Source of the DNA: Alphaproteobacteria bacterium
GTDB lineage: Bacteria; Pseudomonadota; Alphaproteobacteria; JAEULC01
Direction of reading: 5' to 3'
NCBI GenBank assembly: GCA_023150455.1
Contig: JAKLKW010000006.1
Coordinates: 43,051-107,050, forward strand
Length of the DNA stretch: 64,000 bases
The notes under the pieces were generated by a model. It ran no database searches. It was not told the origin of the DNA and saw only the letters and a program-made list of their open reading frames with translations. The position numbers and the translations under genes are program-made. Below are positions 47,230 through 58,186 of this stretch, one piece after another (position 1 is the stretch's first letter; every line of letters starts with the position of its first letter).

Positions 47230-47967
47230 CTAGTAGAGGTGCTGGCCGCCCGTCACGAAGATCTCGGTGCCCGTCACGTAGGCGAAGTCGGGCGAGCAGA
47301 GCTGGTAGACGGTGGCGGCGACTTCCTCGGGCGTACCCATGCGGTGCATCGGGATGCGGGTGATCAGCGGCTCGTAGTCAGGCCCGATCATGTCGGTCTC
47401 GATCTCGCCCGGCGCCACGGCGTTCACGCGCACGCCGAGCTGCGCGAACTCGACCGCCATCTCGCGCGTCAGCGCCGACAGCGCCGCCTTCGACGTGGAG
47501 TAGGCCGAGCCGGCGAAGGGATGGATGGCGTGGCCGGCGATCGACGTGATGTTGACGATGGCGCCCTTGCCCAGGCGCAGCGCCGGCGCGAATCCGCGCG
47601 CCAGCACCAGCGGCGCGAAGAAGTTCAGCTCGAACACCTGGCGCCATCCGTCGATCGCGCCGTTGAGGCAGCCCAGGCGCTCCTTGAACGGCGTCTTGGG
47701 CGACACGGCGGCGTTGTTGACCAGCGCGTGCAGCGGCTGGCCGCCGAGCGCCTCGTTGGCCGCCGCGATGAAGGCGTCGCGGCTGGCGGGATCGGCCAGA
47801 TCGGCCGGGATGTGGTGCGTCCAGTTCGGGTCGCGCCGGCACTCGGGCGGGGCGTCCTCGCGCGAGCAGCTGATGATGCGCCAGCCCTCCGCCGAGAAGC
47901 GCCCGACCGTGGCATGGCCGATGCCGCGCGACGCGCCGGTGAGCACGACGCTGCGCCGCCCGGTCAT
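47230..47967 (-). CDS. Short-chain dehydrogenase/reductase
   Basis: A 245-aa classical SDR. The NAD(P) motif is VLTGASRGIGHATVGRF, NNAAVS is the NAG motif, and the catalytic SYK is seen in NITSIAGHAIHPFAGSAYSTSKAAL. The C-terminus ends VTGTEIFVTGGQHLY. ATG 47967 is preferred because GAAGGGA lies just upstream; the GTG at 47982 is possible. It is the last gene of the minus-strand acyl-CoA block, and a 3-hydroxyacyl-CoA dehydrogenase role is plausible by context. Confidence 0.88.
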   Translation of the reverse strand: MTGRRSVVLTGASRGIGHATVGRFSAEGWRIISCSREDAPPECRRDPNWTHHIPADLADPASRDAFIAAANEALGGQPLHALVNNAAVSPKTPFKERLGCLNGAIDGWRQVFELNFFAPLVLARGFAPALRLGKGAIVNITSIAGHAIHPFAGSAYSTSKAALSALTREMAVEFAQLGVRVNAVAPGEIETDMIGPDYEPLITRIPMHRMGTPEEVAATVYQLCSPDFAYVTGTEIFVTGGQHLY

Positions 47968-47995
47968 GGTCCCTTCGGACACGTGGGGCGCGCGC

Positions 47996-48994
47996 TCATC
48001 CGCCCGTCTCGACCACGACGCGGCCGCGCACCTGCCCCTTCAGGATCTCGCCCGCCAGGCGCGGCAGGTCGGCGAGCCTGGCCGGCTGGACCATCCGGTC
48101 GAGCTTGTCGAGCGGCAGGTCGCGGGCGATCCGGTTCCACGCCTCGCGCCGCTGCGGCACCGGGCACATCACCGAATCGATGCCCAGCAGGTTGACGCCG
48201 CGCAGCAGGAACGGGATCACGGTGGTCTCGAGCTTGGGCCCGCCCGCCAGGCCGCAGGCCGCGACCGAGCCGCGGTACTTCGTCTGCGACAGCACCGTCG
48301 CCAGCGTCGTGCCGCCGACCGAATCGACGGCCCCGGCCCAGCGCTCGCTGTCGAGCGGCTTGCCCGACGGCGTCGCCAGCGTCGCGCGGTCGATCACCTC
48401 GCGGGCGCCGAGGCCCCGCAGATAGTCGTGCGTCTCCGCGCGGCCGGTCGAGCAGGCGACATTGAAGCCCAGCTTCGCCAGGATCGCGGTGGCGACGCTG
48501 CCGACGCCGCCGCCGGCGCCGGTGACGAGCACGTCGCCCTGGGCCGGCTGCACCCCGTGCGCCTCCAGCGCCATGACGGCCAGCATGGCGGTGAAGCCGG
48601 CGGTGCCCACCGCCATCGCCTGCCGCGCGGTCAGGGCCTTGGGCAGCGGCACCAGCCATTCGCCCTTGACCCGCGCGCGCGTGGCGTAGCCGCCCCATTG
48701 CACCTCGCCGACGCGCCATCCGGTCAGCACGACGGCGTCGCCCGGCTTCCAGTCCCCGTGGCGCGATTCCTCCACGACGCCCGCGAAGTCGATGCCCGGC
48801 ACGTGCGGGTACTTGCGCACCAGCCGGCCGACGCCGCTGAGGATCATGCCGTCCTTGTAGTTGAGCGTCGAATGCGTGACGCGCACGGTCACGTCGCCCG
48901 CCGGCAGCGCCGTGAGCGGCAGCTCCTCGAGCGACGACTTCACCTTGCCGTCGGCTTCCTCGAGCACGAGGGCGGAAAACGTATCGGCTGCCAT
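47996..48994 (-). CDS. acuI: Acrylyl-CoA reductase-like zinc-free MDR oxidoreductase (AcuI/YhdH)
   Basis: A 332-aa medium-chain reductase of the YhdH/AcuI subgroup. The N-terminal part has THSTLNYKDGMILSGVGRLV and HVPGIDFAGVVEES, both typical of AcuI. The NADPH-binding motif is VTGAGGGVGSVATAILAKLG (about residue 150). No zinc-ligand cysteines are seen, as expected. Such enzymes reduce acryloyl-CoA to propionyl-CoA. The operon context with ligase and thiolase supports short acyl-CoA metabolism, although the exact enoyl-CoA is uncertain. Confidence 0.87.
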   Translation of the reverse strand: MAADTFSALVLEEADGKVKSSLEELPLTALPAGDVTVRVTHSTLNYKDGMILSGVGRLVRKYPHVPGIDFAGVVEESRHGDWKPGDAVVLTGWRVGEVQWGGYATRARVKGEWLVPLPKALTARQAMAVGTAGFTAMLAVMALEAHGVQPAQGDVLVTGAGGGVGSVATAILAKLGFNVACSTGRAETHDYLRGLGAREVIDRATLATPSGKPLDSERWAGAVDSVGGTTLATVLSQTKYRGSVAACGLAGGPKLETTVIPFLLRGVNLLGIDSVMCPVPQRREAWNRIARDLPLDKLDRMVQPARLADLPRLAGEILKGQVRGRVVVETGG

Positions 48995-48999
48995 GACGC

Positions 49000-49587
49000 C
49001 TAGCTCGCGACCGGCGAGGACTGCAGATCGGGCAGCCACTCCTGCAGCGCGATCTCCAGCGTGATGCAGATCGGATTGCCGCCGCGCACGAACTCGCCGC
49101 CATAGACGCTGGCGTCGGAGTCCGAGATTGTGCCGCGCAGCGTGGCCACGGGCTTGCCGGTCTCGTCGGGGCGCACCTCGCCGTTCAGCGTCAGGATCTC
49201 GATGCCGGGGCCCTCGACCGTGATCAGGGTCAGCGAGTCGCCTTCGCCATAGCCGAGCGCCGCGTCCACCAGGCTGCCGACGGCGCTGCGCACGACGGCA
49301 TACGTGATGCCATGCGAGGCGCAGACGCGCTCCACCCCGGCGACCAGGTCGATGTTCGGGCGGACGCGGGCGAGGATCATGCGGCCGTAGCGGCCGCGCT
49401 CGACCAGCGTCGCCAGCGTGCCCGGGCGATCCTCGTTCAGGGTATAGGGCGCGGCCGGGGGCACCAGCACGGCGGCGGGCTTCACCGCGCCGATCTTGCG
49501 CGCGCGCGGCTTCGTTTTCTTCGGCGCCGGCGCGGCCTTGCGCGCGGCTGCGGGCCTGTGGGCCGCTTGCTTGCGCCGGGCGGTCAT
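49000..49587 (-). CDS. PCC/DUF296 domain protein (second of pair, diverged metal site)
   Basis: A 195-aa protein. Residues 1-40 are a basic Ala/Lys/Pro-rich tail (KKTKPRARKIGAVKP), and the rest is a PCC (plants and prokaryotes conserved, DUF296) domain. Landmarks are ARVRPNIDLVAGVERVCASH, VEGPGIEILTLNGEVRP and the YGGEFVRGGNPICITLEI end. The HxH metal pair of the family appears to be missing (TISDSDASVYGGE). It overlaps the first PCC gene by four bases. The function is unknown; the two may form a heteromer. Confidence 0.8.
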   Translation of the reverse strand: MTARRKQAAHRPAAARKAAPAPKKTKPRARKIGAVKPAAVLVPPAAPYTLNEDRPGTLATLVERGRYGRMILARVRPNIDLVAGVERVCASHGITYAVVRSAVGSLVDAALGYGEGDSLTLITVEGPGIEILTLNGEVRPDETGKPVATLRGTISDSDASVYGGEFVRGGNPICITLEIALQEWLPDLQSSPVAS

Positions 49588-50120
49588 GCCGCCACCTTGT
49601 GCGCCGCGCCGAGCGCCATCGGATGGAAGATCGGGTAGTTGGTCTCGGCGTCATAGCGCACCGCCAGCGCCGCGTCGGCCAGGGCGGCGGCCAACGCGAC
49701 CACGCCGCCCGGACCGACCGTGCAGACGCCCGGTGGCAGGTGGCCGCCATGGACGGCGCCGTCGCGATCCACCACGACGGCGTGGCAGTGCACGATCGAC
49801 TTGCCCATCTCGTCGATGCCGAGGAAGGCGTTGCCGCTCAACAGCGTGACCGGCCCGACCAGCGTGGTCGGCGCGCCATAGGTCGCGACGCGCTTGCCGT
49901 CGCGGCAGGGCTGGCCGGTGAGATACTGCATGCGCGCGAAACGCCCGCCGTTTAGGAACACCGCCGCCGAGGCGACCCCGGCGCCCGTCAGGGCGCGCGC
50001 AAGGCCGTTCAGCAGATCGGTCCCCTCGGGCACCACGATGCGCAGCTCGCCGCCGCTCGATGCCGCCACGCTCAACACGCGCGGACGCGCCGGCTTGCCC
50101 GGCTGCCTGATTGTTCTCAC
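49584..50120 (-). CDS. PCC/DUF296 domain protein (first of pair, with intact HxH)
   Basis: A 178-aa protein with one PCC/DUF296 domain. The core has GTDLLNGLARALTGAGVASA, SGNAFLGIDEMGKSIVHCHA and VVDRDGAVHGGHLPPGVCTV. The HCH and GGH histidines fit the zinc site of bacterial PCC proteins. The start is GTG at 50120 with GAGGAGA six bases upstream. Its stop overlaps the start of the second PCC gene. It lies 22 bases after the acyl-CoA ligase, so the pair is embedded in an acyl-CoA operon. Confidence 0.82.
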   Translation of the reverse strand: MRTIRQPGKPARPRVLSVAASSGGELRIVVPEGTDLLNGLARALTGAGVASAAVFLNGGRFARMQYLTGQPCRDGKRVATYGAPTTLVGPVTLLSGNAFLGIDEMGKSIVHCHAVVVDRDGAVHGGHLPPGVCTVGPGGVVALAAALADAALAVRYDAETNYPIFHPMALGAAHKVAA

Positions 50121-50142
50121 CGTCGTCTCCTCGTGCTTCGCG

Positions 50143-51729
50143 TCACGGTCCCTGCTCCTTGCTCAGCTCGCCGCGTGCGTAGAGCTGATCGCGGATCAGG
50201 TGCTTCGGCACCTTGCCATAGCCCGACTTCGGCAGGTCCGGCCAGAAGAACACCCGGCGAGGCCACTTGTACTTGGCGAGCCTGCCGTCGAGGTAGTGCA
50301 GCAACTCGTCCTCGCGCGGTAGCGCGCCCTCGGCCGGAACCACGACCGCCACGCCGGACTCGCCCCATTTCGGATCGGGCACGCCGAGCACGGCCACTTC
50401 CGACACGGCCGGATGCGTCAGCAGCACCTCCTCGCATTCGCGCGGGTACACGTTGGCGCCGCCCGAGATGTACATGTCCGAGGCGCGGCCCGTGATGTAG
50501 AGGAAACCCTGAGCGTCCAGGCGGCCGAGGTCGCCGGTGTGGAACCAGCCGTCCTTCAGCGCCTTGGCGTTGGCCTCGGGATTGTTCCAGTAGCCCAGGA
50601 ACACGCCCGGCCCGCGCACGCAGATCTCGCCCTTCTCGCCGGGTCCCAGACGCCTGCCGGACGGGTCCTTGATCGCGATCTCCATGCCGGTGCGCGGATA
50701 GCCGCAGGTGCCGATCCGCGCATCCGGCGCGTCGTCGTCGAGCGTGTGCAGGGCCGGCGGCAGGACGGTGATGTTGCCGGTCACTTCGCCCAGGCCGAAA
50801 TACTGCACCAGCACCGGGCCCAGCTTCTCCAGGGCCTTCTTCTGGTCCGCGCGATACATCGGCGCGCCGGCATAGATCACTTGGCGCAGCGACGAATGGT
50901 CGTACCGATCCACCGCCGGGTCGTCCACCAGCATCTTCACGATGGTCGGCACGGTGAACATGTTCGTGACGCGGTGCCGCGCGACCAGCCGCCAAGCCTC
51001 CTCGACGTCCAGCTTGTCGCTCGGCAGCAGCACGCTCCTGGCGCCGCGCGCCACGTTGACCAGCATGTGCATGCCCGCCCCGTGCGACAGCGGCGCCACG
51101 ACCAGCGAGGCGTCGTGCTCGCTCAGGCCCGGCATCAGGTCGGCGAGGTGGTTCGTCACGACATAGGCCATCTGGCCGTGCGTCAACACCGCGGCCTTCG
51201 GCTTGCCCGTCGTGCCCGAGGTGAAGAAGAACCAGACCGGATCGTCGTAGGACACGTCCTCCTCGAAGGACGGCGCGCCGGCGTGCTTGGCCACCAGCGC
51301 CTCGTAGGCGTGCTCGCCGGCGCGCGGCTCGGCGACGGCGATCACGTGCCCGAGCGCGGGCGAGCCGGCCCTGACGGCGTCGACATGCTCGCCGAAGCCG
51401 CGGTCGTAGATGAACGCCTTGGCGCCCGAGGACTGGCCGAGCCAGGCGATCTCGGGCGGCGTCAGGCGGTAGTTGGTCGGCACCCACGCGGCGCCGGCCT
51501 TGAACACGGCCCAGCACGTCTCGAACATCTGGTTCGAGTTGCGCGACTGCACCAGCACGCGGTCGCCCTTGGCCACGCCCAAGCCCCGCAAGGCCGCCGC
51601 CAGCGCGTTGACGCGCTGGTCGATCTCGCGCCAGGTCCAGGTCCGGTCGCGCCAGACCAGGCCCGGCCGGTCGGGCAGCCGCCGTGCCATGTCCGACAGC
51701 AGCCGGCCGAGATTCATCACGTCGCCCAT
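50143..51729 (-). CDS. AMP-binding acyl-CoA synthetase
   Basis: A 528-aa adenylate-forming ligase. Core motifs are FFFTSGTTGKPKAAVLTHGQ (A3, P-loop), YFGLGEVTGNI (A5), GWFHTGDLGRLDAQGFLYI (A7) and a C-terminal lysine in LPKSGYGKVPK (A10). It activates a carboxylic acid to the acyl-CoA with ATP. The chain length or aromatic nature of the acid cannot be told. The ligase, thiolase, PCC pair, AcuI and SDR lie in the same direction with small gaps, forming a catabolic operon. Confidence 0.93.
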   Translation of the reverse strand: MGDVMNLGRLLSDMARRLPDRPGLVWRDRTWTWREIDQRVNALAAALRGLGVAKGDRVLVQSRNSNQMFETCWAVFKAGAAWVPTNYRLTPPEIAWLGQSSGAKAFIYDRGFGEHVDAVRAGSPALGHVIAVAEPRAGEHAYEALVAKHAGAPSFEEDVSYDDPVWFFFTSGTTGKPKAAVLTHGQMAYVVTNHLADLMPGLSEHDASLVVAPLSHGAGMHMLVNVARGARSVLLPSDKLDVEEAWRLVARHRVTNMFTVPTIVKMLVDDPAVDRYDHSSLRQVIYAGAPMYRADQKKALEKLGPVLVQYFGLGEVTGNITVLPPALHTLDDDAPDARIGTCGYPRTGMEIAIKDPSGRRLGPGEKGEICVRGPGVFLGYWNNPEANAKALKDGWFHTGDLGRLDAQGFLYITGRASDMYISGGANVYPRECEEVLLTHPAVSEVAVLGVPDPKWGESGVAVVVPAEGALPREDELLHYLDGRLAKYKWPRRVFFWPDLPKSGYGKVPKHLIRDQLYARGELSKEQGP

Positions 51730-51764
51730 GGCGGTCCCCGAGTACGCGACGCGCCCCGGCGGCC

Positions 51765-52931
51765 CTAGCGCAGCGGCTCCAGGATGCTCACGTAGTTCGC
51801 CACGGCGGCGCCGCCCATGTTGAAGATGCCGGCCAGCTTCGGGTTGCGCAGCTGCATGCCGCCGGCCGTGCCGGTCAGCTGCATCGACGCCAGCACGTGC
51901 ATCGACACGCCGGTCGCGCCGATCGGATGGCCCTTGGATTTCAGGCCGCCCGACGGGTTGACCGGCAGCTTGCCGTCCTTCTCGGTCCAGCCCTCCAGGA
52001 TCGCGCGCGCGCCCTGGCCCTCGGGCGCGAGGCCCATGGCCTCGTACTCGATCAGCTCGGCCAGGGTGAAGCAGTCATGCGTCTCGACCAGGCTGAGGTC
52101 GAGAAGGTCGATGCCCGCCGTCTCGAGCGCGCGCTTCCAGGCGACGGCCGGGCCCTCGAACCGGACGATGTCGCGCTTGCTCATCGGCAGGTAGTCGTTG
52201 ACCTGCTCGTTGGCGCGGAACACGACGGCCTTCTTCATGCCGAGCGCGGTGTCGACGTCGGCCAGCACCAGCGCCGCCGCGCCGTCGGACACCAGCGAGC
52301 AGTCCGTGCGCTTGAGCGGCCCGGCGACGATCGGGTTCTTCTCCGACACGTTGCGGCAGAACTCGTAGCCCAGATCCTTCTGCATCTGCGCCAGCGGGTT
52401 GTGCACGCCGTTCCTGTGGTTCTTGGCGGCAATGCGCGCCAGCGCGTCGGACTGGTCGCCGTAGCGCTGGAAATACTGCTGCGCGATGCGGCCGAACACG
52501 CCGGCGAAGCCGCCCTCGATGTCGCCTTCCTCTTTCTGGTACGCGGCCTTGATCAGGACGCCGCCGATCTCCGGCCCGCTCAGCTCGGTCATCTTCTCGA
52601 CGCCGACGACCAGCACGATGCGCGCCCGGCGGGCGTCGATCGCGCCGATGCCCTGGCGCACGGCGGCAGAGCCGGTGGCGCAGGCGTTCTCGACCCGCGT
52701 CGCCGGCTTGTAGCGGAGCTTGTCGGAAACCTGCAGCACCAGGGACGAGGTGAATTCCTGGCGCACGAAGCCGCCGTTGAAATGACCGAGGAAGATCTCG
52801 TCGACGTCCTCGGGCCCGATGCCGGCATCGGCCATGGCGTCGGCTGCGACCTTGGCGATCATTCCCTCGACGTCGATGCCGTCCATCTTGCCGAACTTGC
52901 TGTGCGACCAGCCGACGATGCAGGCGGTCAT
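51765..52931 (-). CDS. Thiolase / acetyl-CoA acetyltransferase (SCP-x type)
   Basis: A 388-aa thiolase-fold enzyme. The nucleophilic cysteine is in RVENACATGSAAVRQG (about residue 86) and the catalytic histidine in GGLKSKGHPIGATGVSMHV. HDCFTLAELIEYEAMGL is typical of the SCP-x branch, and the usual C-terminal CxG cysteine is replaced by MGGAAVANYVSILEP. A perfect GGAGG site stands six bases before ATG 52931. It should cleave 3-ketoacyl-CoA (or act as a lipid-transfer-type thiolase) and is the first gene of the operon. Confidence 0.92.
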   Translation of the reverse strand: MTACIVGWSHSKFGKMDGIDVEGMIAKVAADAMADAGIGPEDVDEIFLGHFNGGFVRQEFTSSLVLQVSDKLRYKPATRVENACATGSAAVRQGIGAIDARRARIVLVVGVEKMTELSGPEIGGVLIKAAYQKEEGDIEGGFAGVFGRIAQQYFQRYGDQSDALARIAAKNHRNGVHNPLAQMQKDLGYEFCRNVSEKNPIVAGPLKRTDCSLVSDGAAALVLADVDTALGMKKAVVFRANEQVNDYLPMSKRDIVRFEGPAVAWKRALETAGIDLLDLSLVETHDCFTLAELIEYEAMGLAPEGQGARAILEGWTEKDGKLPVNPSGGLKSKGHPIGATGVSMHVLASMQLTGTAGGMQLRNPKLAGIFNMGGAAVANYVSILEPLR

Positions 52932-53016: not shown

Positions 53017-53787
53017 ATGACGGGGACGGGGGAGCAGCGCAGCCGGGTCGTCCTGGTCGCGGGCGGCGCCAGCGGCATCGGCCTCGCGGCCGCGCAGGCG
53101 CTTGCGCGCGACGGCGACACGGTGGTGCTCGCCGACCGCGACGGCGACCTCGCGCACCGCGCCGCAGCGGATATCGGCGGCCGGGCCGTCGCCGTTGCCT
53201 GCGATGTTACGGACGAGGCCGAGGTCGACGCGCTGATCGAGAAAGCCGTGGCCCGGGGCGGCCGCCTGGACGCGGCGGTGAACAGCGCCGGCATCGGCTT
53301 GCAGAAGCCGTTCCTCGAGACGACGGCGGCGGACTGGCGCCGCGTGCACGACGTCAACCTGTTCGGCGCCTTCCTCATCGGCCGCGCCGCCGCGCGGCGG
53401 ATGGTGGCGCAGGGGCAGGGCGGGCGGATCGTGCAGATCGCGTCGATCAGCGGCAACCGCGGCAGCATGGGCCGTGCCGCCTACGGCGCGTCCAAGGCCG
53501 GTCTCATGAACCTGACGCAGGTGATGGCGGTCGAGCTCGCGCCGCACGGCATCACCGTCAACTGCGTCAACCCCGGCCCGGTCGACACGGCGCTCGCCCG
53601 CGCCGTGCACACCGAGGCGACACGCGCCGGCTGGCGCCGCGCCGTCCCGCTCGAGCGCTACGGCACGGTCGAGGAGATCGCCGCCGCGGTCCGCTTCCTG
53701 CTCTCGCCCGGCGCGTCCTACGTCACCGGCGTGACGCTCGACGTCGACGGCGGCTTCACGGCAGCGGGTCTGCGGCTGGAGGCGTGA
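53017..53787 (+). CDS. Short-chain dehydrogenase/reductase
   Basis: A 256-aa classical SDR with VLVAGGASGIGLAAAQALA, NSAGIG and the active-site SxxxxGAAYGASKAG-type segment (SISGNRGSMGRAAYGASKAG). The C-terminus reads VTGVTLDVDGGFTAAG. It is divergent from the thiolase operon across an 85-bp gap, so it may share regulation and act as a 3-hydroxyacyl dehydrogenase. The start is ATG 53017 or 53008; no clear ribosome binding site decides. The 3' end overlaps the convergent MATE gene by 32 bases. Confidence 0.88.
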   Translation: MTGTGEQRSRVVLVAGGASGIGLAAAQALARDGDTVVLADRDGDLAHRAAADIGGRAVAVACDVTDEAEVDALIEKAVARGGRLDAAVNSAGIGLQKPFLETTAADWRRVHDVNLFGAFLIGRAAARRMVAQGQGGRIVQIASISGNRGSMGRAAYGASKAGLMNLTQVMAVELAPHGITVNCVNPGPVDTALARAVHTEATRAGWRRAVPLERYGTVEEIAAAVRFLLSPGASYVTGVTLDVDGGFTAAGLRLEA

Positions 53788-55117
53788 CGGCCCGCGGACG
53801 GCAGCGCTGCCGGAAGCGCCACGACAGCAGGACGAGCGCCACGATGCTGGCGAGCAGGATCGCGAGAAACAGGCCCGGCGCGCCGAGGCCGAGCGGGAAG
53901 GTGAGCAGCCAGGCGCCGGGGATCATCACGCCGAAATAGGCCGCGAAGTGCAGCGTGGTCGGGACCCAGGCGTCGCCGGTGCCGCGCACGGCCGACAGCA
54001 TCACGCCCTGGCCGCCGTCGGCGATCATGAACCAGGCGGCCATGGCGATCATCGTCGCCGCCAGCGGCGCCAGCGCCGCGTCGGTCGTGAACAGGGCGGC
54101 GATCCCGGGCGCCAGCACGACGAAAGCGATCGACGCCAGCGCCATGACCGCCATGCAGACGCCGAGGCCGACCCAGCCGGCCATCGCCATCTCGGCGCGA
54201 TCGCCGCGGCCGCGCGCATGGCCGACGCGCACTGCCGTGCCGACCCCGAGGCCCACCGCCGTCATGAACGCCAAGGCCGAGCAGTTGAGCGAGATCGACC
54301 AGGCGGCAAGCGGCAGGGTCCCCAGCCACCCCGCGAAGATGCTCATCGAGCCGAAGGCCGCGGCCTCGAGCCCGTAGCTCACGCCCGAGGCATAGCCGAT
54401 GCCGCGCGCCGCGGCGCCGTCGCGCCAGGGCCGGCGCGGCCGCTCGCGCACGGCGAAGCGCGCGTGGTCGGCCATCAGCAGCGCATAGGCGATCATGCAA
54501 GCCGCCATGGCCGTGCGCGTCAGCGCCATGGCCACGGCCGAGCCTTCGGCGCCCATCGCCGGCATGCCCCAATGGCCCAGCACGAACAGCCAGTTGAGGA
54601 ACGCGTTCAACAGGTTGGCGAACAGGATCGCCACCATGCCCGGCTCCGGCCGCTTGATCGCCTCGAGGAAGAACGTGGTGGTGACGTAGAGCGCCGTGCC
54701 GGGCAGCGACCAGCCCAGGATCGCCAGCACCCGCCCGCCGCCCGCGGCGATGTCCGGCGCCTGGCCGGTCAAGAGGAACAGCTTCTCGCCGAACTGGCAG
54801 AGCACCGCGCCGACGAGGCCGACAATCAGCGCATAGACGAGCGAGCGCCGCCAGACCTGGCCGCATTCGCGGTCCCTGCCCGCGCCGAGCGCGTGCGCCG
54901 TCTCCACCATCGTGCCGACCATCAGCCCGACCGTGGTGATGATCAGCGTGCCGATGGCGACGCCGGCGATCGCCATGTAGGCGACCTGCTCGGGGCCGAC
55001 GCGACCGAGGAAGGCGACACCGACCACGGTCATGGTCATCACGCCCGTACGCGAGACGATGACCGGCACGGCCAGGCGCAGCAGTTCCTTCACGTGCTGG
55101 GAGATCGGCATCGACAT
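53756..55117 (-). CDS. MATE family efflux transporter
   Basis: A 453-aa 12-helix transporter of the MATE family. The first helices read LLRLAVPVIVSRTGVMTMTV and VAFLGRVGPEQVAYMAIAGV, matching the duplicated MatE repeats. The second repeat starts near GIGYASGVSYGLEAAAFGSM. It likely exports cationic drugs or metabolites using Na+ or H+. The start at ATG 55117 (MSMPISQHVKELL) is preferred; ATG 55111 is also possible. It lies downstream of the cysteine hydrolase gene and may be co-transcribed. Confidence 0.9.
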   Translation of the reverse strand: MSMPISQHVKELLRLAVPVIVSRTGVMTMTVVGVAFLGRVGPEQVAYMAIAGVAIGTLIITTVGLMVGTMVETAHALGAGRDRECGQVWRRSLVYALIVGLVGAVLCQFGEKLFLLTGQAPDIAAGGGRVLAILGWSLPGTALYVTTTFFLEAIKRPEPGMVAILFANLLNAFLNWLFVLGHWGMPAMGAEGSAVAMALTRTAMAACMIAYALLMADHARFAVRERPRRPWRDGAAARGIGYASGVSYGLEAAAFGSMSIFAGWLGTLPLAAWSISLNCSALAFMTAVGLGVGTAVRVGHARGRGDRAEMAMAGWVGLGVCMAVMALASIAFVVLAPGIAALFTTDAALAPLAATMIAMAAWFMIADGGQGVMLSAVRGTGDAWVPTTLHFAAYFGVMIPGAWLLTFPLGLGAPGLFLAILLASIVALVLLSWRFRQRCRPRAVTPPAADPLP

Positions 55118-55161
55118 GGCCGCGCCCCCGTACAGGGTTTGGACGCGGCCGTCCAGTCGCC

Positions 55162-55734
55162 CTATGGCACGGCTGCCAGCACCGTGCTCGCGGTCACGAT
55201 CTCCGCATACTCGCCCGCGAGGTTGGCGAGCGACAGCGCGTGCACCTCGTCGGCGCTGCGCAACACGCCGTTCCAGTCCCGGCGCGCGAAGGTGAAGCAG
55301 CCGTCGGCGACGAGGCAGGCCCTGAAGCCGAGGCAGGCGGCCATGCGCACGGTCGTCTCGACCGAGTTGTTGGTGATCGCGCCGCAGACGACCAGCGTGT
55401 CCGAGCCCGCCGCGCGCAGAAGCTGCTCGAGCCCGGTGCCGACGAAGGCGCTGGTCGTCTGCTTGGGCACGACCGTCTCGCCCGGAAGCGGACGCACCGC
55501 CGGCTTGAAGTCGTTGCCGGGCCGGCCCGGGCGATAGGCGGAATTGGGCTCGCGCGAGTCGTGGCGCACATGGACGAGCGGCCGGGCGGCGCGCCGCCAG
55601 GCTGCCAGCAGGGCCGCGATCGCTGCCTCGGCCCCGGGATTGTTGCGCGGTCCGTCCTTGGCCCAATAGGGCGCGTCGATCGCCTGCTGAACGTCGATGA
55701 CGATGAGCGTCGCGTTGGCCGGCAGCGCGATCAA
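55162..55734 (-). CDS. Isochorismatase-like cysteine hydrolase family protein with Ser at the nucleophile position
   Basis: A 190-aa protein of the isochorismatase/nicotinamidase fold. The aspartate is in LIVIDVQQAID (about residue 14) and the lysine in VVPKQTTSAF (about 91). Where members usually have the nucleophilic Cys (TNxCVExT), the sequence reads CGAITNNSVETTVRMA, so Ser replaces Cys. The rest of the fold appears intact (LGFRACLVADGCFTFARRDW). Either a variant clade or loss of the classical activity is possible. It overlaps the dihydroorotase gene by four bases, so the two are co-translated, perhaps in ureide or pyrimidine breakdown. Confidence 0.85.
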   Translation of the reverse strand: MIALPANATLIVIDVQQAIDAPYWAKDGPRNNPGAEAAIAALLAAWRRAARPLVHVRHDSREPNSAYRPGRPGNDFKPAVRPLPGETVVPKQTTSAFVGTGLEQLLRAAGSDTLVVCGAITNNSVETTVRMAACLGFRACLVADGCFTFARRDWNGVLRSADEVHALSLANLAGEYAEIVTASTVLAAVP

Positions 55735-57062
55735 AGCGTTTCCAGGAACCGGGCGGGCTGGCCGATCGGATCGTTGATCAGCTCGTCGTCGCGCATGACG
55801 ATGTTGCCGCGCAGGATCGTCGCCATCGGCCAGCCCTTGACCTTCATGCCGGCGAACGGCGTCCAGCCGCAGCGGCTGGCCGTATCCGCGTCGGTGATCT
55901 CGCGCGCGGCCTTAAGGTCCACGATCGTCAGGTCGGCGTCGTAGCCCAGCGCGATGCGGCCCTTGCCGGCGATGCCGTAGATGCGCGCCGGTCCGGCGGA
56001 GGTCAGGTCGATGACGCGCTCGAGCGTCAGCCGCCCCGCGGCGCAGTGGTCGAGCAGGAGCGGCAGCAGCGTCTGCACGCCGGGCATTCCCGAGGGGCTC
56101 TTGGGATATTCCTGCGCCTTCTCCTCCTCGGTGTGCGGCGCATGGTCCGAGCCGATCACGTCGACCACGCCGTCGCTGATCGCCTGCCACAGCGCCGCGC
56201 GGTGGCGCTCGTCCCGAATCGGCGGGTTCATCTGCGCCTTGGTGCCCAGGCGCTCGTAGCAGTCCGGCCCGCACAGCGTCAGGTGCTGCGGCGTGACCTC
56301 GACCGTCGCGACCTCCTTGTGCTCGGACAGAAGCGCCATCTCCTCCGCGGTCGTCACGTGCAGCACGTGCACGCGCCGCCGCGTCTTCTCCGCCAGCGCC
56401 ATCAGCCGCTGCGTGGCGATCAGCGCGCTCTCGGCGTCGCGCCATTCCGGATGCGCGCGCGGGTGCCTGGCGTTCTCCGCGATCGCCTTGCGCTCCTTCA
56501 GCCGCGGCTCGTCCTCGGCGTGGACGGCGACGCGGCGAAAGCCCGAGACCAGCACGCGCTCCAGCGTCGCGTCGTCCTCGACCAGCAGCCCGCCGGTGGA
56601 CGAGCCCATGAAGATCTTCACGCCGCAGCAACCCGGCAGCAGCTCCAGGTCGGCGAGGGTGTCGACGTTGCTGGCGCTGGCGCCGACGAAGAAGGCGTGG
56701 TCGCACCAGGCCCGGCCGCCGGCCCGGTTCAGCTTGTCCTTGAGCGCGGCCTCGGTCAGCGTCGGCGGCTTGGTGTTCGGCATCTCGAAGATGCAGGTGA
56801 CGCCGCCCAGCACGGCGCCCGCCGTGCCGGTGTTGAGATCCTCCTTGTGCTCGTTGCCCGGCTCGCGGAAATGCACCTGCGTGTCGATGACGCCGGGCAG
56901 CACGTGCAGGCCGCCTGCGTCGATGCGCTCGGCGGCCTTGGCGTTCTTCAATTCGCCCAACGCGGCGATGCGCCCGCCGCGCACGCCGACATCGGCCCGC
57001 ACGAGTCCGCTCGGCGTGGCCGCGGTGCCGCCTGCGACGACCAGGTCGAAGCTGTCGTTCAA
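55731..57062 (-). CDS. pyrC: Class I dihydroorotase / cyclic amidohydrolase
   Basis: A 443-aa amidohydrolase of the dihydroorotase-allantoinase-hydantoinase group. Landmarks are DTQVHFREPGNEHKEDL, the carboxylated lysine in CCGVKIFMGSSTGG, metal histidines in VHVLHVTTAEEM and the catalytic aspartate in IGSDHAPHTEEEK. The first histidine of the usual HxH is Gln, as I recall for many alphaproteobacterial members. I use TTG 57062, which follows GGGGGGA; the frame extends to another TTG at 57074. It could serve pyrimidine synthesis or, given the neighbouring cysteine hydrolase, degradation. Confidence 0.87.
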   Translation of the reverse strand: MNDSFDLVVAGGTAATPSGLVRADVGVRGGRIAALGELKNAKAAERIDAGGLHVLPGVIDTQVHFREPGNEHKEDLNTGTAGAVLGGVTCIFEMPNTKPPTLTEAALKDKLNRAGGRAWCDHAFFVGASASNVDTLADLELLPGCCGVKIFMGSSTGGLLVEDDATLERVLVSGFRRVAVHAEDEPRLKERKAIAENARHPRAHPEWRDAESALIATQRLMALAEKTRRRVHVLHVTTAEEMALLSEHKEVATVEVTPQHLTLCGPDCYERLGTKAQMNPPIRDERHRAALWQAISDGVVDVIGSDHAPHTEEEKAQEYPKSPSGMPGVQTLLPLLLDHCAAGRLTLERVIDLTSAGPARIYGIAGKGRIALGYDADLTIVDLKAAREITDADTASRCGWTPFAGMKVKGWPMATILRGNIVMRDDELINDPIGQPARFLETL

Positions 57063-57101
57063 TCGTCCCCCCAAAGGGCCGGTCTCGGGGCGCGGCGATG
57101 G

Positions 57102-57163: not shown

Positions 57164-58186
57164 ATGGCCCAAACATCGGCATTCCCCAAACCGCAAAGCG
57201 GCCTGGTCGTCCCCCGGTTCGGCGGCATCGCCACCTTCATGCGACTGCCGCTGCTCGACGATCCTGCCGGCCTCGACATCGCGCTGCTCGGCGTGCCCTG
57301 GGACGGCGGCACCACCAACCGCGCCGGGGCGCGGCACGGGCCGCGCGCGCTGCGCGATGCCTCGTGCCTGATGCGCTACGTGCACCACGTCAGCCGGATC
57401 AGCCCCTACGACATCGCGCGCATCGGCGACGTCGGCGACAGCTCGGTCAATCCGATCGACCTGATGGATACGCTGAAGCGCGTCCAGAAGTTCGTCGCCA
57501 GGGTGCATGCGGCCGGCGCCATCCCGCTCACCGCCGGCGGCGACCACCTGATCAGCCTGCCGATCATGCGCGCCGTCGCCAAGGACCGGCCGGTCGGCAT
57601 GGTGCATTTCGACGCCCATACCGATACCTGGGACCGCTACTTCGGCGAGTGCAAGTACACGCACGGCACGCCGTTCCGTCGCGCGATCGAGGAAGGATTG
57701 CTCGACCCCAAGCGCACGATCCAGATCGGCATCCGCGGCTCGCTCTACGGCGAGGCCGACAACGACTGGGGCGAGCAGCAGGGCATCCGCATCGTCACGA
57801 TCGAGGAGTTCTACAAGCTCGGCGTCGACAAGGTGATCAAGGAGGCGCGTCGCGTGGTCGGCGACGGGCCGACCTATGTCAGCTTCGACGTCGACGGGCT
57901 CGATCCCGTCTACGCGCCCGGCACCGGCACGCCGGAGATCGGCGGCTACTCGACGCACGAGGCGCAGGCCATGATCCGCGGCCTGCAGGGGCTCGACCTC
58001 GTCGGCGCCGACGTGGTCGAGGTGGCGCCGCCCTTCGATCCCTCGGGCAACACCGCCGTGGTGGGCGCCACGATGATGTTCGAGATCCTATGCATCCTGG
58101 CCGATGCCGTGGCGCGGCGGCGCGAAGGCAACATGAAGCCGAACGGCAAAGGGAACGGCAAGTCCAACGGCAAGCGCAAGCGCTGA
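57164..58186 (+). CDS. speB: Agmatinase/arginase-family ureohydrolase
   Basis: A 340-aa manganese ureohydrolase. Metal-binding motifs are complete: TAGGDHLISLP, VHFDAHTDTWD and SFDVDGLDPVYAPGTGTPE. The conserved GVPWDGGTTNRAGARHGP is near the N-terminus. It cleaves a guanidino compound to urea and an amine; agmatine, guanidinobutyrate or guanidinopropionate are candidates. Urea produced could feed the urease operon in this window. The C-terminus has a low-complexity basic tail, NGKGNGKSNGKRKR. It starts an operon with DUF2161 and nitroreductase genes. Confidence 0.9.
   Translation: MAQTSAFPKPQSGLVVPRFGGIATFMRLPLLDDPAGLDIALLGVPWDGGTTNRAGARHGPRALRDASCLMRYVHHVSRISPYDIARIGDVGDSSVNPIDLMDTLKRVQKFVARVHAAGAIPLTAGGDHLISLPIMRAVAKDRPVGMVHFDAHTDTWDRYFGECKYTHGTPFRRAIEEGLLDPKRTIQIGIRGSLYGEADNDWGEQQGIRIVTIEEFYKLGVDKVIKEARRVVGDGPTYVSFDVDGLDPVYAPGTGTPEIGGYSTHEAQAMIRGLQGLDLVGADVVEVAPPFDPSGNTAVVGATMMFEILCILADAVARRREGNMKPNGKGNGKSNGKRKR

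Follow-up and report, generated by a model that had tools for sequence, protein, structure and literature searches.

Proteins with a single PCC/DUF296 domain are represented by a series of solved structures (AF0104, 2h6l; PH0802, 2dt4; VCA0587, 2p6y; 3hwu; 3htn), although we found no biochemical role assigned to the bacterial proteins, which databases often describe as DNA-binding. In the plant AHL proteins the PCC domain is combined with an AT-hook. A fold with a three-histidine zinc site related to acetolactate decarboxylase has been described for PTD012/C11orf54, in which the zinc is held by three conserved histidines (PMC12435205). This protein hydrolyzes p-nitrophenyl acetate, and its ester hydrolase annotation stood for a long time before being superseded by a decarboxylase assignment: according to a 2025 PNAS commentary, PTD012 is the long-sought beta-keto-L-gulonate decarboxylase, a conclusion resting partly on fusions with a dehydrogenase (PMC12435205).

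The window analyzed here, a 64,000-nucleotide stretch of alphaproteobacterial DNA, carries two PCC genes in tandem (PCC1 and PCC2) whose products share fold and Pfam family with the single-domain proteins. PTD012 (DUF1907) belongs to a different and mainly eukaryotic Pfam family and is likened to the pair by description. Within the open-licence literature we found no paper linking DUF296 with an acyl-CoA synthetase (earlier reports may exist elsewhere) and nothing useful on DUF296 together with acetolactate decarboxylase.

A tandem PCC pair in a run of acyl-CoA genes

The two PCC genes lie in a same-strand run spanning 47230-52931 in the order thiolase, PRK07470 ligase, PCC1, PCC2, AcuI and SDR, with intervals of 35, 22, -4, 5 and 13 bases (Table 1); the segment 49000-51729 comprises PCC2, PCC1 and the ligase alone. 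PCC1 starts at a GTG (50120) 22 nt past the ligase stop, and the AcuI start codon (ATG, 48994) lies 5 nt beyond the end of PCC2. The ATGA overlap between the PCC genes would be expected to couple their translation. Both products pass the Pfam PCC cut-off of 25 bits (PF03479; 35.1 bits for PCC1 and 58.7 bits for PCC2), and the genome as a whole gave no other PCC match. The PCC1 segment containing the HCH...GGH residues reads IVHCHAVVVDRDGAVHGGHL, while the PCC2 counterpart, ATLRGTISDSDASVYGGEFV, has none of the three histidines. The preliminary description had reported both the tandem PCC/DUF296 genes within a ligase/thiolase/AcuI run and the presence of HCH/GGH residues in PCC1 and their absence from PCC2; both observations hold, the pair being flanked directly by ligase and AcuI.

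Table 1. Features of the same-strand run, in window positions.
Feature	Positions	Strand	Remarks
Thiolase-domain protein, PRK07516 / SCP-x-like type	51765..52931	-	680 bits vs cut-off 412
Acyl-CoA synthetase, PRK07470/NF005676 equivalog	50143..51729	-	903 bits vs curated cut-off 774
PCC1, 178 aa	49584..50120	-	Metal-type His triad H111, H113, H127; C-terminal motif E159-T160
ATGA stop/start overlap (PCC1 stop, PCC2 start)	49584..49587	-	Seen in sequence
PCC2, 195 aa	49000..49587	-	PCC domain without His triad, with the two Glu invariant in single-domain PCCs
Basic N-terminal tail of PCC2, ~50 aa	49440-49587		Lys/Arg/Ala/Pro-rich, with a KPRAR stretch
AcuI-type acrylyl-CoA reductase (NADPH)	47996..48994	-	NF051456, 447.7 bits vs cut-off 440
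SDR-family oxidoreductase	47230..47982	-	Pfam adh_short_C2; final gene of the run

The surroundings of the pair differ between relatives. In window-type clusters AcuI immediately follows PCC2, and a dihydroorotase-family amidohydrolase is often present as well; it lies near the cluster in 6/9 such loci and may hint at a cyclic amide as substrate. The SDR is kept at two loci of the same genus (L061 and L087). In the window, 53756-57074 encodes a dihydroorotase-family amidohydrolase (PRK09060 equivalog), an isochorismatase-like hydrolase and a MATE transporter, running into the thiolase-ligase-PCC genes; an agmatinase-family gene on the other strand (57164-58186) comes next after the amidohydrolase. 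In many relatives the two PCC domains form one fused protein, and clusters of this kind commonly contain a TRAP transporter, an IclR regulator and one or two SDRs, often with a thiolase. Across all homologous loci a thiolase is present in most cases; Bradyrhizobium-type and several other loci have none beside the pair, which rules it out as a fixed partner. The common core of the clusters is the PRK07470 ligase together with the PCC pair.

Linkage to the ligase and natural fusion of the pair

We examined this linkage in a phylum sample of 399 genomes and a class sample of 289 genomes, counting the PRK07470 ligase only above its equivalog cut-off; ligase-family scores in the phylum sample left a wide gap, from 785.7 down to 456.5 bits. 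All 26 phylum-sample genomes with the equivalog ligase have a tandem PCC within ~3 kb of it, and in 25 of these the distance is at most 1.5 kb. The remaining genome (G464; L044, locus L079) had appeared to be an exception, which a 20 kb reading ruled out: its tandem PCC belongs to the ligase cluster and sits ~2 kb upstream of the ligase gene. The linked genomes cover nine families and include two from outside the class, and ten of the 26 belong to one genus and are hence not independent. A tandem PCC was found beside none of the four next-best, below-cut-off ligases that were checked (0/4). Single-domain PCCs, unlike the tandem pair, are not linked to this ligase, as it was absent within 1.5 kb of all 30 strong single-domain loci (0/30). 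In the class sample, 14 genomes carry a PCC1 homologue, the window genome included, and the ligase adjoins the pair in 13. In the remaining genome (G200, a 78% complete assembly from the same genus; L087:2565-4816) the pair adjoins the thiolase with the ligase missing between them, and the assembly yielded no PRK07470-equivalog ligase.

Set against 45 ligase-linked loci are two orphan fused copies, one on a Skermanella plasmid and one in G436 (C124), a genome in which a split pair is also linked to the ligase in the usual way. One orphan copy (L118:9412-10338) lies beside RNase HII and a trehalose-phosphate-synthase-like gene, the other (L057:9067-9846) beside parB and GNAT genes. The proposal in the preliminary description that such pairs are tied to acyl-CoA enzymes is strongly borne out, with the PRK07470 ligase as the fixed partner and thiolase and AcuI depending on lineage. 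The refuting condition it set, pairs elsewhere in unrelated contexts, applies to these two copies only. The metabolic role at which it hinted emerges strengthened well beyond the original claim.

Among 48 homologous loci, the two domains are fused into one protein of about 270-300 aa in 32 and split into two genes in 16; the fused form is that of Rhizobiales and Rhodobacterales. A single branch with 100/100 support divides fused from split forms in a maximum-likelihood tree, so that one fusion or fission event suffices to explain their distribution. Since homologues are naturally fused, PCC1 and PCC2 appear to act together. Pairwise distances over 45 loci correlated between ligase and PCC1 (r = 0.89), ligase and PCC2 (0.80) and PCC1 and PCC2 (0.91), values that are inflated by shared ancestry. 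The earlier suggestion of a PCC1-PCC2 heteromer therefore gains indirect support, from the single polypeptide in 32/48 loci and the PCC1-PCC2 correlation. A fused tandem PCC gene also lies beside a ligase cluster on an Agrobacterium plasmid (L060:8971-10869), with a split pair just downstream on the opposite strand. Two fused tandem PCCs (L045 and L040) have diverged so far that they fall below Pfam PCC detection at E 0.001, yet are detected by a tandem-family profile; surveys based on Pfam alone therefore undercount the tandem family.

Invariant PCC residues divided between two domains

We next compared conserved residues in an alignment of 48 PCC1, 48 PCC2 and 31 single-domain PCC sequences (numbering from L008). 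Six residues are invariant in the single-domain proteins (E98, H117, H119, H133, E145 and R158; 31/31), where a His triad, two Glu and one Arg thus occupy the same chain; the triad can also be read in aligned PCC structures. In the tandem family these residues are divided. The complete His triad, forming the HxH...GGH metal-type site of the single-domain proteins, is kept in 48/48 PCC1 and 0/48 PCC2, six of the latter having a His at just one of these positions. The Glu pair shows the reverse distribution, being present in 0/48 PCC1 and 48/48 PCC2; taken singly, E98 is kept in no PCC1 and E145 in 11. The invariant Arg has been lost as a conserved residue from both, with R158 retained in only two PCC1 sequences. 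Neither PCC1 nor PCC2 therefore carries the full single-domain set of three His, two Glu and Arg. In addition, PCC1 has acquired a C-terminal E159-T160 motif that is invariant (48/48), and a PG motif is conserved in its N-terminal part. What is new here is this division of invariant PCC residues between two proteins or domains.

Because the Glu pair is kept in every PCC2 and, as a pair, in no PCC1, part of the active site is probably supplied by PCC2. The preliminary description had cast the pair as one catalytic and one structural partner; the conserved Glu pair does not support that assignment as stated, and we set aside a purely structural PCC2 as the default since both of its glutamates are invariant. 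The conservation pattern points instead to one composite active site, in which the PCC2 glutamates would sit beside the PCC1 histidines in space. It also suggests descent from a homo-oligomer whose chains each contributed His as well as Glu, the site later coming to be shared by two specialized chains.

Structural models were consistent with a PCC fold. An AlphaFold model of PCC1 (pLDDT 82.7, built on seven sequences) matched the PCC structures 2h6l, 2hx0, 3hwu, 2nmu, 3htn, 2dt4 and 2p6y, the best being AF0104 (2h6l), which was deposited as a 'metal-containing protein'. The next-best fold class was alpha-acetolactate decarboxylase (5yho, 1xv2, 4bt2, 6j92), with Foldseek probabilities of 0.98-1.00 but E values of 0.008-0.06 and TM scores of 0.40-0.46 over one domain. 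We also modelled a natural fused homologue from Bosea (pLDDT 84.1, pTM 0.84, six sequences), which showed two successive PCC-like domains in its secondary structure and matched PCC structures. No whole-length alignment of this model with acetolactate decarboxylase was found, and a full-length likeness of the fused protein to that enzyme was set aside. A joint alignment of fused proteins and split halves was kept out of modelling because it misplaced PCC2 onto PCC1.

A candidate two-part metalloenzyme and its alternatives

Based on the computed features, namely fixed linkage, fusion, division of invariant residues and fold similarity, we lean towards a single metal-dependent enzyme built as a heteromer from PCC1 and PCC2, one half each, and acting together with the PRK07470 ligase in catabolism, a reading we hold to be slightly better than evenly balanced. 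From these features we infer a physical heteromer, metal binding, a composite site, enzyme activity, a pathway order and a chemistry. PCC1 would give the metal site through its three histidines and PCC2 two acidic residues, placing the active site where the two domains meet; the fused chain of Rhizobiales and Rhodobacterales would be this enzyme as a single polypeptide. In the pathway envisaged, the substrate would be taken up and oxidized by an SDR before activation by the ligase. The step assigned to PCC1-PCC2 would follow, with either the free acid or the CoA ester as its target, presumably a keto or hydroxy acid or an acyl-CoA that the adjacent ligase, SDR and thiolase produce or consume. 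Thiolase or AcuI together with SDRs could then complete conversion to a central acyl-CoA. The nearest solved structures to the ligase are feruloyl-, fatty-acyl-, malonyl- and oxalate-CoA ligases, which are too distant to name its substrate. The chemistry may be decarboxylation assisted by a metal, or else a related reaction that cleaves a C-C or C-O bond. Metal-assisted decarboxylation is the leading guess because of an apparent likeness in fold and putative metal site to acetolactate decarboxylase and PTD012, but naming the reaction is the weakest step of the explanation and a decarboxylase is a doubtful assignment. Somewhat less doubtfully, though still tentatively, the pair could represent a new class of PCC-fold metalloenzyme, with its site split between paralogous domains as His triad and Glu pair, an obligate ligase partner and a previously unassigned step; that this step might be, for example, the decarboxylation of a beta-keto acid, in a catabolic pathway widespread among proteobacteria, is put forward with the same reserve.

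The family label raises the possibility that the pair is instead a transcription regulator or a chromatin-type DNA-binding factor for the operon. Relatives are named 'DNA-binding protein' or 'PPC domain-containing DNA-binding protein' in public records, plant PCC proteins of the AHL type have a role in transcription, and PCC2 of the window shares with these both the PCC domain and a basic N-terminal tail containing KPRAR. That tail, however, is confined to relatives in the window genus and is lacking from other split pairs (e.g. L004, L005), which rules out AHL-like DNA binding by it as a general feature, and we found no conserved AT-hook N-terminal to the PCC domain. The genes also sit within an enzyme run beside the ligase, in a catabolic operon, and are not divergent from it; many clusters already have an IclR regulator, and the invariant metal-type His triad of PCC1 and Glu pair of PCC2 weaken the case for this role, which we regard as quite improbable.

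Two other explanations accept a metabolic setting and are unlikely to about the same degree. The strict ligase linkage and correlated divergence would suit a PRK07470 ligase subunit that is non-catalytic or regulatory, or a DUF35-like subunit of the thiolase, that stabilizes or channels acyl-CoA. Relatives of the thiolase, namely the benzoylsuccinyl-CoA and archaeal acetoacetyl-CoA thiolases, function as parts of complexes. Yet several linked loci have no thiolase and the two orphan fused copies have no nearby ligase, while a His triad in every PCC1 with a Glu pair in every PCC2 would be unexpected for a purely structural subunit. The second of these explanations is a metal hydrolase, a thioesterase or lactonase clearing stalled or unwanted acyl-CoA or lactone intermediates; adjacent SDRs could make lactones or keto-acyl-CoA, and the related PTD012 hydrolyzes p-nitrophenyl acetate and long carried an ester hydrolase annotation (PMC12435205). 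Against this, the PTD012 annotation has given way to the decarboxylase assignment, and no sequence feature of the pair singles out hydrolysis.

Tandem PCC pairs thus look like an unrecognized metal-dependent enzyme in two halves, despite the usual 'DNA-binding' label of the family. The near-exclusive link to one ligase, the natural fusions and the clean division of residues make an enzyme function directly testable with concrete mutants. If the enzyme role is true, it would also provide a chemical precedent for the single-domain PCC proteins, which hold all of these residues in one chain.
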